From Luteolibacter ambystomatis (GTDB taxonomy: Bacteria > Verrucomicrobiota > Verrucomicrobiia > Verrucomicrobiales > Akkermansiaceae): 64,000 bases of DNA. Made by a program: the position numbers and the translations under genes. The stretch spans positions 1,860,001 through 1,924,000 of the forward strand of contig NZ_CP073100.1 of NCBI RefSeq assembly GCF_018137965.1, given 5' to 3'. This document shows positions 27,573 to 55,059 of this stretch, piece by piece. Each line of letters starts with the position of its first letter. Positions within the stretch are counted from its first letter, which is position 1. The notes beneath the pieces were generated by a model. That model ran no database searches, was not told where the DNA came from, and saw only the letters and a list, made by a program, of their open reading frames with translations.

Positions 27573-30500
27573 TCAGCGGGTGACCGTGAAGGTTGCCGAA
27601 GTCTTATCACCCAACACGAACGACGTATCCGGCAGCAGCGACACGGTGCAGCCGAAAGCCGCCTTGGCCGACTTCACGTGATAGACTGCCGAAGAAGCGT
27701 GCGCCGGGAAAGTGACGCGGCGGCGCGTGGAAGACGGACGGCCGCCGACCGGATTCTTCTCCTCCACCAGTGTGAACGTCACCGATTGTTCCAAGCCACC
27801 GCTGCGGACGACAGGCACATCAACACCCGACACGGATGGAGCCTGGGTTTGCAGGCTGACCACCGAGCTCACATCCAGCAACTCGATCGTCGCGGCCGAA
27901 CGTCCCGCAATGGTTCCATAGCCCGTGCCACTGGTAACAGTCAGAGTCACCGTTTCGATGCCTTCCACGATCTTGTCCGCGGTCGGGGTGAAAGGCACGG
28001 TCACCGAAGACTGGCCTGCGGCGATGGTTGCGGTGGTGGGCAGCTTGCGATAGTCCTTCGCCGCCGTAGCGGAGCCGGAGGCCACCAGGTTCACCTTCAG
28101 AGCCTTCGAGAGATCGCCCGTGCGGGAGATCACGAAGCCGCGCGAACCAGCAGCGGCGGTTTCAGAAGCTTGGGAGAGCCCGTTGAGCAGCGCGATGGAA
28201 ACGGCGGTTTCGTTGTCCGCGACATCAAGGGTAGCCACGCCCGGAAAATCGACCTTGTATGCGTTCCCGGGAACCAATGCCACGACGAGTTTTTCCGGGC
28301 CTTCCGCGAGCGTGTCATCCACGGCCTTGATCGTTCCGGCAGTGGTCGCCGATCCTGCCGGGATGGTGGCCACCCACATGCCGTCTCCGGCATTGGCAGC
28401 TCCCTGGATGGTCACATCCGAAATGGACGCCGTGCCAGCCAACGTGAGGCGCACGTCGAGCGGCGACGAAGTCGGACCCGTGCGGGACACGGTGAAGGAA
28501 GATCCGGCCTGCGAACCTTCGGAAATCGCAAGAGCGCCAAGGCTGAGCCCCACGGCAGGTCTCACCTCCACACCCGCGGGCGCGGTCTCAAACGCGGAGA
28601 AACCATACTCGTAACCACCGAATGCCTCGTAACCATCCGCGGTCCAGAGCAATCCCGGCACGCCATCGCTCAATGTCGCACGGGTTTCCGTGGACCAGAT
28701 CGGTCCCGTCGAATCCGGCCAATACTGGAAGCGGTTTCCGGAGTTGATCCACAGGCCCTGGTCCGAGCCCGAAAGCAAACCGCTGATCTTCGCGTTCGAC
28801 ACGGCCAGCGGAGTTCCGGCGGAATAGGTTCCCGGCGCGGTCGCCGTATAGCGAACGGTCTTGCCGTCGGTCTTGCCCAAGGTGAATCCGTTGTTTTGGA
28901 GAGTCAGCGCGGAAACGCCTCCTCCCACGGAAAGCTCCACGGACCGGGCAACCAGATCCACCACGGCAAGGCCATTGCCGGTGCCACAAAGAACAACTTC
29001 GGGAGCACCATCTCCATCGACATCTCCAATCTCCATGCAGGTGAAGCCCTTCGTATCCGTGCCCAGGATCGGTGAACGCCATTCCACCGTGCCTGTCGTG
29101 TAGTCGATGATGCTGACACGCGAACCATCCCCGCCTTTGTTCACGGCAACGACCTCGAGTCTGCCATCTCCATCCAAATCGACGATTTCCGCGTTGGTGT
29201 AGCTGGCGTCCGCAGGTTTGTCAGGGTTCGACCAAATCTTGTGGAACGTCCTGCTGCCCGGTTCGTAGTGCAATATCGAGATGTCACCTTGGCTGGCATG
29301 ATCTCCGGTGATCACGATTTCCTTGGTACCATCGCCGTCGACATCACGGAGTTTCACACTGGTGATTCCGAAATTCGAGTCAGCGGAAGGAAGCTGATCG
29401 GACGTTGCGAGGATCTCCAGGGACTGGCAGTCGAAGACCACGACATTTCCATGGAAGGAGTAGCTTGAGGCACCGATGATTTCCGGAATCCCATCGCCTG
29501 TGATATCTCCGACCACGGGAGGGAGAAACGGACTACCCAACAGCGTATTTCCCGCCCACCGTCCTGCCAAGGTATCCCCGCGAACCAGCAGAAAAGGAAA
29601 ATCACCTACCGAGCTTCCGTTCGGACTCACCAGCAGATCCTTGACACCATCTCCATCCACATCGCGTCCCGCCAGGATGCTCTCCGCTCCACCATCCGGG
29701 ACATATATCCCGAAGTCGAAGGCGAACGATCCCCCATTCAAGGAATAACCTGAGATTCCCTCGGCATCACCAATCAGCAACTCCAGGCCGGGAGTATCGT
29801 CGATGTCGGCGATCGTGAGAGATTTGACCGCGGACGAACGAGGCTGGTTGATCAGGAGCCGGTTTTCTTGCACGTCAGCAGCCGAAAATCCATACGAGGA
29901 AGCCTGTGTCACAAAACTGTAAACCTCGTCCCGGCCGTCGCCATTGGCATCCGCGAGAACCAGCTGGGACCATGTGGGCCAGTCCGACGGGCGCGTCCAT
30001 TGGATCGCGTGTGTTGCGCAATCGATGACACGCCCCGATGACAGGACGATTTCCTTGGCCGGATCGTCGTCCACCTGTCCGACTGCGATATCCCAGGTCG
30101 TACCGCTAGGCGACAGGGATGTGGTCCATAACAAGACCCCGTTTCGGTCATACACGCTCAGCGCGCTGGATGTCTGCGCCACAATCTCCGGAAGACCGTC
30201 ACCATCCACATCCGCGATCTGCATCCCTCTGGGCGTGGTCGAAAAGCCGACGGGGATTTGAACCGTTTTGACCAGTTCGAAGGTCACCGGATCGTAAGCC
30301 AACACGGTCCCATCATTGTATCCCGCGACAATCTCGGGGGTGGCACCGCCGGTCATCCTTGCCGGTACGATCCGCAGCGCGCTCCCAACAGCAGGTGCCA
30401 CGTGCTTCTGCTGGAAAGAAGAGGTCGCCGGATCCCACACCATGGCATACCAGAATGAGCCGGACTTCACGATCACCTCGCGCCCTGATGGGGTATCCAT

Positions 30501-30641
30501 CGTAAAGAGAGGAGTACCAGAGAAGTTCGCATACTCCCAAAAGGAACGGATGGCGGATTCCGCTGGCACATCCCACACGGCCGCAGAAGCGGCAACGGGC
30601 ATGGCGAGCGCGGCGGCAACAAGAGCTGAGCGGGCAGGCAT
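27573..30641 (-). CDS. Secreted FG-GAP/VCBS and Calx-beta repeat protein
   Basis: The 1022-residue protein has a signal peptide (ALVAAALAMPVAASAAVW). Residues about 120-560 carry several FG-GAP/VCBS blades with Ca-binding loops such as IADVDGDGLPEIVA, GRDVDGDGVKDLLV, DLDGDGRLEVVAVN and IGDVDGDGAPEVVL, predicting a beta-propeller. Residues about 690-990 hold Calx-beta domains (SFTVSRTGPTSSPLDVRLTL, GFVISRTGDLSKALKVNLV). The C-terminus ends FVLGDKTSATFTVTR with no sorting motif. Extracellular, probably calcium-stabilised, adhesion or matrix role inferred. Converges with the LysR gene over a strong terminator. Confidence 0.9.
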   Translation of the reverse strand: MPARSALVAAALAMPVAASAAVWDVPAESAIRSFWEYANFSGTPLFTMDTPSGREVIVKSGSFWYAMVWDPATSSFQQKHVAPAVGSALRIVPARMTGGATPEIVAGYNDGTVLAYDPVTFELVKTVQIPVGFSTTPRGMQIADVDGDGLPEIVAQTSSALSVYDRNGVLLWTTSLSPSGTTWDIAVGQVDDDPAKEIVLSSGRVIDCATHAIQWTRPSDWPTWSQLVLADANGDGRDEVYSFVTQASSYGFSAADVQENRLLINQPRSSAVKSLTIADIDDTPGLELLIGDAEGISGYSLNGGSFAFDFGIYVPDGGAESILAGRDVDGDGVKDLLVSPNGSSVGDFPFLLVRGDTLAGRWAGNTLLGSPFLPPVVGDITGDGIPEIIGASSYSFHGNVVVFDCQSLEILATSDQLPSADSNFGITSVKLRDVDGDGTKEIVITGDHASQGDISILHYEPGSRTFHKIWSNPDKPADASYTNAEIVDLDGDGRLEVVAVNKGGDGSRVSIIDYTTGTVEWRSPILGTDTKGFTCMEIGDVDGDGAPEVVLCGTGNGLAVVDLVARSVELSVGGGVSALTLQNNGFTLGKTDGKTVRYTATAPGTYSAGTPLAVSNAKISGLLSGSDQGLWINSGNRFQYWPDSTGPIWSTETRATLSDGVPGLLWTADGYEAFGGYEYGFSAFETAPAGVEVRPAVGLSLGALAISEGSQAGSSFTVSRTGPTSSPLDVRLTLAGTASISDVTIQGAANAGDGMWVATIPAGSATTAGTIKAVDDTLAEGPEKLVVALVPGNAYKVDFPGVATLDVADNETAVSIALLNGLSQASETAAAGSRGFVISRTGDLSKALKVNLVASGSATAAKDYRKLPTTATIAAGQSSVTVPFTPTADKIVEGIETVTLTVTSGTGYGTIAGRSAATIELLDVSSVVSLQTQAPSVSGVDVPVVRSGGLEQSVTFTLVEEKNPVGGRPSSTRRRVTFPAHASSAVYHVKSAKAAFGCTVSLLPDTSFVLGDKTSATFTVTR

Positions 30642-33307: not shown

Positions 33308-34612
33308 TCAGATGCCGCCGATCGCGGTGCGCTTGGACACGGTCCAGATCGAGCCCTGTGGATCGTAGGGCGGCTGGTTGTCACCATTGAGCTTGCCCGG
33401 CAGGGTGCCATCGGTGCGGAACAGCGGCAGGATCGGTGATCCGCTGGAGGACTTCTGATAGGTCGCCCCTACCTCCTCGATCATCAGCGAGGCGGCGAAA
33501 AGTCCGCCCCAGCCTTCGCAGATCAGGATGTCGATGGGATACTCCTTGCCCGCCTGGACTTCGAACTCCGGCCCGACCGCGCAACCGCCGATCTGACTGT
33601 TCCAGTTCCCCGTGGTGGGATATTGATAAAAGGTCACCGGAGCCTCCATCGGGCAACCGCGCAGGGCATTGCGCTGCTTGGGATCCTTCAGCGCGGCGAG
33701 GAAGGTCTCATGGCGCACGGTGCCCGAAATGAAGCCGAAGTCGAAGATGTTCCGGTTGTTGAAACGCACCACCATCGTGTCATCCCCCGCTCCGACAAAG
33801 CGGTACTTGCCCGTCTTCGGCGGAATGATCGTGCCGCGATAGACCACCATCCAGCGCGGATGCTCGTCCGGCGTCATGCCGAACGCCTTCGGTGCCTCCG
33901 CCGCATTCATCGCAGGCATGTAGATGCGGGTCTGATAGAGTTTCTTCGGGGATGCCTGGTACTTCGCGAGGCTGGCATCCTTCCATCCGCGCGTGACGAA
34001 GTCGTTGATGATGTCCCACTGCCGCGGATTGTCCGTCTTCAGTTCGTTGCCGTCCGAACGGCGGTCGATGTTGTAGAACGTGCCCACCAGCGCATTGGCA
34101 TTGGGATCGATCATGCCGAACGGGCTCATACCGCTGGCATTGCCGCCACCGAGGCCCGGGCCCATGCCGCTGCCGAAGCCCTTGCCCTGGCCATCGCCAC
34201 GGCCGCCACCGGAGCCGCTGCCGCCGAGACCGCCCGACAATCCGCCGCTGCTCAGCGAGCCCACCGAGGACATCGCCGAGGCCGCGTCCGGCTCGGGAAG
34301 CGCGAAGCTGCTGGTCGCCCCCTTCGCCGCCATGCGCGGCGTATTCGGCGTGGACATGGTCGCGCGCTGCTTCTTGTTGCTGATCTCCTTCACGCCCGGA
34401 GAGCCGCCACCGCCACCCTTCGGCATGAAATCGGGATCCGGCACCTTGTCCGGGATCACTTGGAAAATCCACACCAGCCCGATCGAGAGCAGGATGGCGT
34501 GAACGATGAGGGAGATCGAAAGCGATCCACCACCCAGTTTCTTCCAAAAAGACGGCTTGTTTTCCGCAGCGTGGACTGCCTGCGGCGGCTGATCAAAATC
34601 ATCGGAGGTCAT
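33308..34612 (-). CDS. Membrane-anchored protein: TonB-like SxxxH helix, Gly-rich linker, PA14-like domain (paralog 1)
   Basis: From the ATG at 34612 the protein has 434 residues. A short cytoplasmic part is followed by one transmembrane helix SLSISLIVHAILLSIGLVWI with Ser34 and His38 spaced as in the SxxxH motif of TonB. Then come PKGGGGGSPGVKEISNKKQR, a long Gly/Ser linker (about 114-160) and a beta domain (about 170-400) with WMVVYRGTIIPPKTGKYRFV, GAGDDTMVVRFNNR and KEYPIDILICEGWGG, resembling PA14. The TonB C-terminal domain is absent. Paralogous to 53815-55059. Function unknown; coupling to ExbB/ExbD-type motors is inference. Confidence 0.75.
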   Translation of the reverse strand: MTSDDFDQPPQAVHAAENKPSFWKKLGGGSLSISLIVHAILLSIGLVWIFQVIPDKVPDPDFMPKGGGGGSPGVKEISNKKQRATMSTPNTPRMAAKGATSSFALPEPDAASAMSSVGSLSSGGLSGGLGGSGSGGGRGDGQGKGFGSGMGPGLGGGNASGMSPFGMIDPNANALVGTFYNIDRRSDGNELKTDNPRQWDIINDFVTRGWKDASLAKYQASPKKLYQTRIYMPAMNAAEAPKAFGMTPDEHPRWMVVYRGTIIPPKTGKYRFVGAGDDTMVVRFNNRNIFDFGFISGTVRHETFLAALKDPKQRNALRGCPMEAPVTFYQYPTTGNWNSQIGGCAVGPEFEVQAGKEYPIDILICEGWGGLFAASLMIEEVGATYQKSSSGSPILPLFRTDGTLPGKLNGDNQPPYDPQGSIWTVSKRTAIGGI

Positions 34613-53814: not shown

Positions 53815-55059
53815 ATGACACCGAGCCACCCCGATCCAGCGCTCCCGCCCGCGGTTCACGCCGTTGAGAGCAAGCCTTCCGTTTGGAAAAAACTCGGCGG
53901 CGGCTCCCTTTCGATCTCGCTGATGGTCCATGCCATCCTGCTTGCCATCGGCGTCTTCTGGATCTTCCAGATCATTCCGGAAAAGAAAGCCGACGTGGAC
54001 TTCATGCCAAAAGGCGGCGGTGGAGGCTCGCCGGGGGTGAAGGAGATCAGCAACAAGAAGCAGCGCGCCACGGTTTCGATGCCGAACGCCCCGCGCATGG
54101 CGGCGAAAGGTGCGACCAGCAACTTCACCTTGCCTGAACCGGATGCGGCCTCCGCGATGTCTTCCGTGGGCGCGCTCAGCAATGGCGGCTTGTCCGGCGG
54201 ACTGGGTGGCAGCGGCTCCGGTGGCGGACGCGGCGATGGCACCGGCAAGGGCTTCGGCAGCGGCAAGGGCCCGGGCCTTGGTGGAAACGGTCCCGGCTTC
54301 AATCCCTTCGGCATGCTGCCGGACCCGAACTCGCTGGGGCTGACCGGCACTTTCTATGACTTCAAGCGCAACAAGGATGGCAAGCCCACCGGGGTGCAGG
54401 CGCTTGATGCCGCCATGGCCGCGAAGATCATCAAGGATTTCGCCAAAGGCAGCACTTGGCGCGAACCGCGGAACATCCCCCACTACACCTCGCCGGTGAA
54501 TCTCAGCACCCGCGCCGCGTTCTTCCCAGGCGTGCCGGATACCGAAGCCGGAAAAGCTTTCAAGTCTCCCGAAACTGCTCCCGGCCTCTGGGTCGCCCAC
54601 TACACCGCGACTGTCGTCCCAAACACCAGTGGCATGATCCGCTTCGTCGGCTGGGGGGACAACTGCCTCGTCGTCGGCGTGAATGGCAACGTCCGTCTCG
54701 ATGCTTCGGACCACGGCTATACCGGCGAAAAGCGCGAAAGCCTCGGCAGCGCGAACCTCAAGGGCAAACCGGGCGCCGCCGTCTTCGCCGGCGAATGGTT
54801 CCAGATCCGCGCCGGACAGGCGATGACCGTGGACATCCTCATCGGAGATGAAGGCGGTATCTTCGCCGCCGGAGTGCTGGTGCAGAGCAAGGATCAGGAA
54901 TTGACCAAGGAAGCGAACGGAATGCCGAATCTCCCCATCTTCCGGACCACGGACTTCAACGAGGAAGAACAGAAATTCTTCAAGGACCAGTGGCCCTCCA
55001 ATGCCCTGAAAGGACCCAAGTTCGAAGTCAAAGGAGGCCAACTTCTCGGGGGCATCTGA
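53815..55059 (+). CDS. Membrane-anchored protein: TonB-like SxxxH helix, Gly-rich linker, PA14-like domain (paralog 2)
   Basis: From the ATG at 53815 the protein has 414 residues. It repeats paralog 1 (33308-34612) almost word for word in the N-terminal half: SVWKKLGGGSLSISLMVHAI with Ser35/His39 spaced SxxxH, DFMPKGGGGGSPGVKEISNK, AAKGATSNFTLPEPDAASAM and a Gly/Ser linker. The C-terminal half is diverged: GLWVAHYTATVVPNTSGMIR, FVGWGDNCLVVGVNGNVRLD, RAGQAMTVDILIGDEGGIFA, a PA14-like beta domain. It precedes the PSCyt lipoprotein by 222 bp on the same strand. An ATG at 53794 would add seven residues. Confidence 0.75.
   Translation: MTPSHPDPALPPAVHAVESKPSVWKKLGGGSLSISLMVHAILLAIGVFWIFQIIPEKKADVDFMPKGGGGGSPGVKEISNKKQRATVSMPNAPRMAAKGATSNFTLPEPDAASAMSSVGALSNGGLSGGLGGSGSGGGRGDGTGKGFGSGKGPGLGGNGPGFNPFGMLPDPNSLGLTGTFYDFKRNKDGKPTGVQALDAAMAAKIIKDFAKGSTWREPRNIPHYTSPVNLSTRAAFFPGVPDTEAGKAFKSPETAPGLWVAHYTATVVPNTSGMIRFVGWGDNCLVVGVNGNVRLDASDHGYTGEKRESLGSANLKGKPGAAVFAGEWFQIRAGQAMTVDILIGDEGGIFAAGVLVQSKDQELTKEANGMPNLPIFRTTDFNEEEQKFFKDQWPSNALKGPKFEVKGGQLLGGI

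Follow-up and report, generated by a model that had tools for sequence, protein, structure and literature searches.

We propose that a gene in the 64,000-nucleotide stretch of the Luteolibacter ambystomatis genome analyzed here (the window) encodes a proton-motive-force transducer that works like TonB and TolA and lacks the TonB C-terminal domain. We consider this reading likely, and we stress that the binding of the protein to ExbBD/TolQR and its energizing by that motor are inferred from indirect evidence only. In the proposed mechanism, the N-terminal helix would dock on the outside of the ExbB pentamer via Ser34 and His38, a step inferred from conservation, from the operon position of relatives, and from the loss of these residues together with the ExbB Ser. 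The juxtamembrane block that follows would probably pair with the periplasmic ExbD dimer, the Gly/Ser linker would span the periplasm, and cycles of the motor would pull or reposition the C-terminal PA14 head; both the pairing and the transfer of force are inferences. From its fold alone, and with no binding data, we infer that the head would most likely bind a glycan or a glycosylated partner in the envelope or outer membrane. The parts of the gene, and a second copy of the family in the window, are listed in Table 1.

Table 1. Features of the putative transducer gene and its second copy, in window positions.
Feature	Position	Strand	Basis
Whole gene, SxxxH-anchored PA14-headed putative transducer, 434 aa	33308..34612	-	ORF, AlphaFold2 model, paralogues
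Transmembrane helix, residues 29-52	34457..34528	-	model helix
Ser34-x3-His38, proposed ExbB-docking residues	34499..34513	-	conservation in N-modules and head-only search
Conserved juxtamembrane block (DPDFMPKGGGGGSPGVKEISNKKQ...LPEPDAA), candidate ExbD-binding strand ("motor box", inferred)	34277..34447	-	family alignment
Gly/Ser-rich disordered linker, residues 113-165	34118..34276	-	pLDDT <50 for 64-160
Predicted PA14-fold head, residues 166-430	33323..34117	-	model, Foldseek, VIA-align
Asp277-Asp278, possible DcisD calcium/sugar site	33779..33784	-	conservation; motif per PMC8092209
Second family copy in window, same N-module, diverged PA14-type head (Asp-Asn at the Asp-Asp site)	53815..55059	+	

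The open reading frame runs on the minus strand from an ATG at 34612 to 33308; starts were taken as the first start codon downstream of a stop and are unmapped. The AlphaFold2 model, built on a 27-row alignment and with a mean pLDDT of 73.2, contains the helix at residues 29-52 (pLDDT 85-89 across residues 31-50), in which the motif reads S34-L-I-V-H38. Disorder is predicted over residues 64-160, where the pLDDT falls below 50, and the beta domain at about 166-430 has a pLDDT mostly above 80 with dips to 68-75. In an alignment of PA14-, von Willebrand A (VWA)- and toroid-headed members of the family, the Phe of the DFMP sequence in the juxtamembrane block and one following Gly are invariant, and the Pro is nearly so. 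Despite this conservation, a beta strand is absent from the block in the AlphaFold2 model.

The model predicts that the head adopts a PA14 beta-sandwich fold. The Pfam PA14 match of the window protein lies just below the cut-off (22.0 vs 24 bits, E 1.6e-4), and the solved structures ranked highest by Foldseek are PA14 lectins or adhesins (4cou, 7.9e-8; 6x7x, 1.1e-7). Similarly, VIA-align places the head on 6m8m with a Z score of 12.2 and an rmsd of 3.2 over 164 residues; anti-sigma-factor domain proteins are also among the structural matches (6qe7, Z 11.5). Pfam PA14 exceeds its cut-off in the relatives L118, L218, L055, and L212, and a match to this family is missing in L213, L225, and L124. 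A sequence-only reading had described one helix with Ser34-x3-His38, a conserved juxtamembrane block, a Gly/Ser linker, and a PA14-like beta domain. This description held against the ORF, the model, the alignments, and the fold matches, and its PA14-like fold is now predicted by a model and matched to solved structures. That reading had also named a glycan or outer-membrane partner, and nothing in our analysis shows such a target.

Does the head carry a sugar site? MpPA14 binds sugars, including the ends of fucoidan, via an Asp-Asp calcium site (PMC8092209). In family alignment A1 the window residue Asp277 is invariant and Asp278 is at least 90% conserved; across 75 unique head ORFs the site is Asp-Asp in 50, carries another residue after the first Asp in 10, and is unmatched by the pattern in 15. 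It is possible that Asp277-Asp278 is a calcium/sugar site, an inference from sequence for which there are no cis-bond, calcium, or sugar data. With PA14 lectins such as Marinomonas MpPA14 and yeast Flo/Epa, the window head shares the predicted fold (Z about 10-12) and the Asp-Asp pair. Those lectins, however, are surface adhesins, whereas an inner-membrane tether is predicted for the window head, and its sugar binding is inferred. The second window copy matched no Pfam family at E<=0.1. We also note a 1022-aa ORF elsewhere in the window (27573-30641, minus strand) with repeated D-x-D-x-D-G stretches that, judged from the sequence alone, resemble FG-GAP/Calx-beta repeats.

One alternative is that the protein is a TonB variant serving TonB-dependent transporters, as the helix motif and the motor operons of relatives would allow. 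We regard this as very unlikely. A Pfam scan to E 10 found no TonB or TolA C-terminal domain family in the window protein, the head is a PA14 fold, and TonB_C genes exist separately in the window genome, at 705 kb and 3477 kb.

The reading of the protein as a transducer with a docking helix rests in the first place on the conservation of the Ser-x3-His motif. Among 92 unique family N-modules, His occupies its column in 84 of the 88 covered rows (four rows lack coverage), and the other 21 helix columns printed contain no His at all. The Ser column is less uniform, with Ser in 48 and Ala in 40 of the covered rows; an invariant Ser across the family was rejected because the toroid arms mostly carry Ala (31 of 40 covered). 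Because the His lies within the N-module profile, counts made with that profile, including the operon counts, lean to His, and conservation was therefore retested on homologues collected with only the PA14 head as query. The head-only search covered 145 genomes of the phylum, 32 of them with a match. Only part of the matches (30 loci and 40 regions) entered the count, which comprises 70 unique proteins after 8 of 78 head ORFs were dropped (five duplicates and three without a helix in the sequence covered). Outside genus g18, S-x3-H is present in 54 of 56 helix-bearing proteins, and all of their helix windows together contain one other His. Within g18 it is present in none of 14. Of the 56 proteins, 34 come from one genus (g58, four genomes); seven of the nine non-g18 genera are entirely S-x3-H, and the remaining two are g72 (6/7) and g53 (0/1). 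The near-identical N parts lead us to infer that g18 looks like Akkermansia. Lentisphaeria-type rumen records keep S-x3-H in an N part that the module profile does not match. The claim that Ser and His are conserved beyond chance thus held outside g18 and failed within it. The full SHLS motif (Leu at His+7 and Ser at His+11; spacing per PMC12215075) is not met in the window protein, which has Gly45 and Ile49, and these columns are mostly Gly/Ala and Ile/Val in the family.

Are the arms found beside motor genes? ExbB and ExbD are both present in 16 of 16 genomes checked, His-less ones included, so co-occurrence of exbBD at the level of the genome, a check that had been suggested, is uninformative, and adjacency and contact residues were used instead. 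A separate idea, that loss of the His follows loss of the motor, was rejected since the His-less genomes keep ExbB and ExbD. Adjacency was counted over unique genes with at least 2 kb of upstream sequence, and required a same-strand motor gene as the immediate upstream neighbor at a distance of at most 150 bp. By this measure a motor gene precedes 28 of 38 toroid-headed, 3 of 38 PA14-headed, 3 of 21 VWA-headed, and 5 of 10 unclassified genes. Seven of the 38 PA14-headed genes have a motor gene within 5.5 kb, and the other 31 have no same-strand motor gene within that distance or within the available stretch. PA14-headed S-x3-H genes in three other genomes (L213, L218, and L225), from two genera in two other families, lie at most 20 bp behind exbB-exbD-exbD. 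In L212 the order is exbB-exbD-exbD-VWA arm-PA14 arm, and in L271 another PA14 gene lies directly behind exbD-exbD. In L058, L060, and L061, a PA14 arm and the TPR-size gene of the motor cluster are neighbors, with the arm 3.9 kb upstream of ExbB. The toroid-arm cluster in the window's genus has the composition TPR-size gene (about 1000 aa), ExbB, ExbD, ExbD, and arm, frequently with another gene of about 285 aa before ExbB; TPR repeats are shown only for the window-genome gene, and elsewhere "TPR-size" rests on length. Adjacency, for the toroid arms and for the PA14 genes of L213, L218, L225, and L271, is thus in favor of a link to the motor.

The window gene itself is an orphan: no motor gene neighbors it, and the context of a TPR gene, a tolQ-like gene, and two tolR-like genes is unmet at its locus. 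We infer that its probable motor is the L089 cluster of the same genome (C1, about 1,075,392-1,081,949), which encodes a TPR protein, a 276-aa protein, ExbB, three ExbDs, and a degenerate ExbD, and which lacks a transducer gene where relatives have one. The assignment is by orthology because the window genome has other ExbB genes (8 ExbB matches). In this scheme, the L089 motor would be shared by the 12 intact arms dispersed in the genome, all built on one anchor and bearing either a PA14 or a VWA head. Three further observations concern motor genes. The N end of the fourth ExbD-like gene of the cluster (L089:10516-10950) is degenerate, and its Pfam ExbD match (26.4 bits) starts at model position 37. 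On C1, a pair of ExbB-ExbD clusters that are nearly identical lie at 348 kb and 613 kb (L001 and L002), the 613-kb copy in broken frames. Finally, an armless cluster of ExbB-ExbD-ExbD with a TPR-size gene of about 1030-1200 aa, and mostly with a gene of about 270-355 aa, recurs in L163-L167, L169, L171, and L172, spanning Akkermansia-type, Roseibacillus, and Lentisphaeria-type records.

In E. coli, TonB Ser16 and His20 touch ExbB Ser34 and Trp38, which are linked to Pro190 (PMC12215075). A profile was built from ten ExbBs, of which nine are linked to an arm or lie near one and the tenth comes from the window genome. In this profile, an invariant TM1 Ser aligns with E. coli ExbB Ser34 and TolQ Ser28, and a TM3 Pro aligns with E. 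coli ExbB Pro190; the Trp touched by E. coli TonB is variable in linked ExbBs. In arm-linked ExbB-ExbD-ExbD clusters the Ser is present in 38 of 39 covered ExbBs and the Pro in 41 of 41, and the sole linked ExbB without the Ser (L076) pairs with the sole linked arm without the His. Both Ser and Pro are missing from the six Akkermansia-type ExbBs of ExbB-ExbD-ExbD clusters, which lie beside a TPR-size gene in five of six. Five of these six genomes encode a PA14 protein with a His-less helix, and the sixth (behind L132) has none with a helix in the sequence covered. Similarly, in Roseibacillus, the L167 ExbB retains the Pro and carries Ile in place of the Ser, another cluster has Ala there, and the PA14 protein L155 lacks the His. 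The co-loss has p 0.026 in the linked-only table; the value of 2e-8 requires treating related genomes as independent. It rests on perhaps two or three independent events, and we therefore regard its strength as suggestive to good, short of final. Together with conservation and the operons, the co-loss of ExbB Ser and arm His supports, indirectly, the earlier claim of an energized envelope protein that uses proton force.

Could the protein instead be an ordinary glycan-binding protein or sensor anchored in the inner membrane, its helix only an anchor and its Ser and His a matter of shared ancestry? Most PA14-headed genes are orphans (31/38), the g18 members retain the head without Ser/His, and the own-genome PA14 protein L055 has a signal-peptide-like start and no N-module, all of which speak for this view. 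Indeed, Akkermansia-type genomes keep PA14 membrane proteins and a motor cluster without the Ser/His and without the ExbB contacts, which means that in these genomes, if nowhere else, the head serves without this docking. Against it, S-x3-H persists in L124 and L128-L130, where the N part is unmatched by the module profile, PA14 genes directly linked to motor genes exist, and the ExbB contact residues are absent where the arm His is absent. On balance we consider this explanation unlikely. We also consider unlikely a second alternative, in which the protein docks on ExbB by Ser/His and transmits no force, acting as a motor-bound regulator or scaffold, for example as a PA14 sensor that gates the motor upon encountering glycan. 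The docking evidence cannot separate docking from pulling, and the anti-sigma-factor domain proteins among the structural matches would fit such a role. However, the arms occupy the operon place of tonB/tolA and have a long disordered linker, and the occurrence of different heads on one anchor argues for an output over a single sensor. An anti-sigma sensor was rejected as the main reading, as only about 28 residues precede the helix.

Under the preferred transducer reading, the anchor is a common module and the heads are the variable part. The window genome (5.32 Mb, one contig) has the N-module in 13 copies: eight with intact PA14 heads, four with VWA-type heads, and one with a PA14 head broken between two frames. 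The last, at about 2.82 Mb on C1 (L052:5653-6962), is split across two overlapping frames and is either a broken gene or a sequence error. The four VWA-type paralogues group with VWA; L054:6057 reaches 23.5 bits for Pfam VWA against a cut-off of 23.8, and L053 matches no Pfam family. In relatives, the anchor module is fused to PA14, VWA, or squalene-cyclase-like toroid heads. The toroid head matches Pfam SQHop_cyclase_C (37.5 bits, cut-off 26.1), and its model resembles alpha toroids, terpene cyclases among them (best Foldseek E 1.9e-5). Across seven own-genome PA14 paralogues (21 pairs), mean amino-acid identity is 0.87 in the N-module vs 0.46 in the head, and agreement at four-fold sites is 0.55 vs 0.44. 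When the window gene is paired with its paralogue at 1608 kb, agreement at four-fold sites is 0.82 for the module and 0.43 for the head, a pattern suggestive of recent gene conversion. Per genome, PA14-head matches number 18 in G124, 12 in G109, 10 in the window genome (G000), 9 in G160, and 7 each in G154 and G125, the last a member of the His-less genus g18. A scan of genome contigs with the single protein returned no relative (near records were possibly excluded there); a tighter family alignment as query gave 53 loci.

Two side observations bear on the arms. In genome G086 (L212:8229-11241), a SAM domain precedes the helix (Pfam SAM_1, 66.8 and 59.7 bits) in both of the tandem arms that follow exbB-exbD-exbD; their N-modules are near-identical, and one has a VWA head and the other a PA14 head. 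In addition, the unrelated PA14 and toroid heads have in common a short tail ending in Gly-Ile or Asp-Ile, for example at window position 33311. The last residue is Ile in 16 of 32 PA14 arms, 25 of 41 toroid arms, and 1 of 16 VWA arms, and the tail could possibly be a PDZ-type ligand or a sorting tail.

How do these arms relate to known systems? VWA-headed force transducers with a Ser/His helix, encoded beside TPR, tolQ-like, and tolR-like genes, have been proposed in this bacterial group by Williams-Jones et al. 2025 (PMC12204202). Those transducers and the window protein share the Ser/His helix, a disordered region, and a non-TonB globular head, and both are reported from Verrucomicrobia; the PA14 arms of L213, L218, and L225 match the ExbB-ExbD-ExbD part of the published context. 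Unlike them, the window protein has a PA14 head and its family also includes toroid heads, many arms per genome are dispersed orphans, and the anchors of paralogues are more alike than their heads. A motor-box beta strand after the helix is predicted for the VWA transducers; the corresponding window block is conserved, and the model shows no strand in it. With E. coli TonB and ExbB-ExbD (PMC12215075), the family shares the N-terminal-helix Ser-x3-His, relatives that adjoin exbB-exbD, and the retention of the ExbB Ser34 and Pro190 equivalents in linked operons. In contrast to E. coli TonB, the window protein lacks the TonB C-terminal domain and the Leu and second Ser of SHLS, and has a Gly/Ser-rich linker; the arm-family operons have two dissimilar ExbDs each. 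Likewise, TolA has a Ser-x3-His helix (Ser18/His22, PMC12215075), and the linked ExbBs match TolQ best among solved structures, whereas the window head is PA14 and not the TolA C-terminal domain.

The architecture had been called a new TonB-type one without the TonB C-terminal domain. The absence of that domain held, and the newness held only in part, because VWA-headed transducers that share this helix and operon setting have already been described. PA14, toroid, and prenyltransferase are unmentioned in the main text of PMC12204202, and no description of PA14 or toroid heads on such arms was found in the open-access literature searched, which included few subscription papers and no preprints. 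Within those limits, what is new here is the PA14 and toroid heads on TonB/TolA-like arms, and the fan-out of many arms per genome is the less expected part of the finding. Many literature matches to ExbB, ExbD, PA14, and TonB concern Pseudomonas aeruginosa, where PA14 is a strain name; the open-access match to ExbD with "PA14 domain" concerns glycoside hydrolases, judging by its title. No paper in that literature joins Akkermansia mucin, ExbD, and tetratricopeptide, and the relevant passages of two mucin-utilization papers contain neither ExbB nor TonB. TolQ/ExbB and TolR/ExbD genes of a verrucomicrobium have been assigned to TonB-type oligomer transport in a paper that does not mention PA14 (PMC13274419), and PA14 fibroslime proteins and an ExbB/ExbD/TonB operon are reported in Fibrobacter and are not joined in the relevant passages (PMC6851124).

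Finally, a bolder reading is that one shared proton-driven motor serves interchangeable arms, with recombination keeping anchor and linker alike while the heads (PA14, VWA, and toroid) diversify, such that the cell pulls on many glycans or surface partners and the Akkermansia-type lineage lost both docking sides together. The evidence leaves us leaning slightly against this reading as a whole. Were it true, the arms would perhaps serve selfish polysaccharide uptake, which has been reported for Verrucomicrobiota (PMC13174399). TonB and TolA are the two well-characterized outlets of the motor family. Should PA14 and toroid heads prove to be additional outlets, force transfer across the envelope would be modular, and one motor may drive at least 12 different heads. 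The paired absence of the arm His and the ExbB Ser/Pro offers a natural contrast for testing the docking seen in E. coli by cryo-EM, and the transducers, if confirmed, would provide a testable energy source for the handling of large glycans in Verrucomicrobiota.
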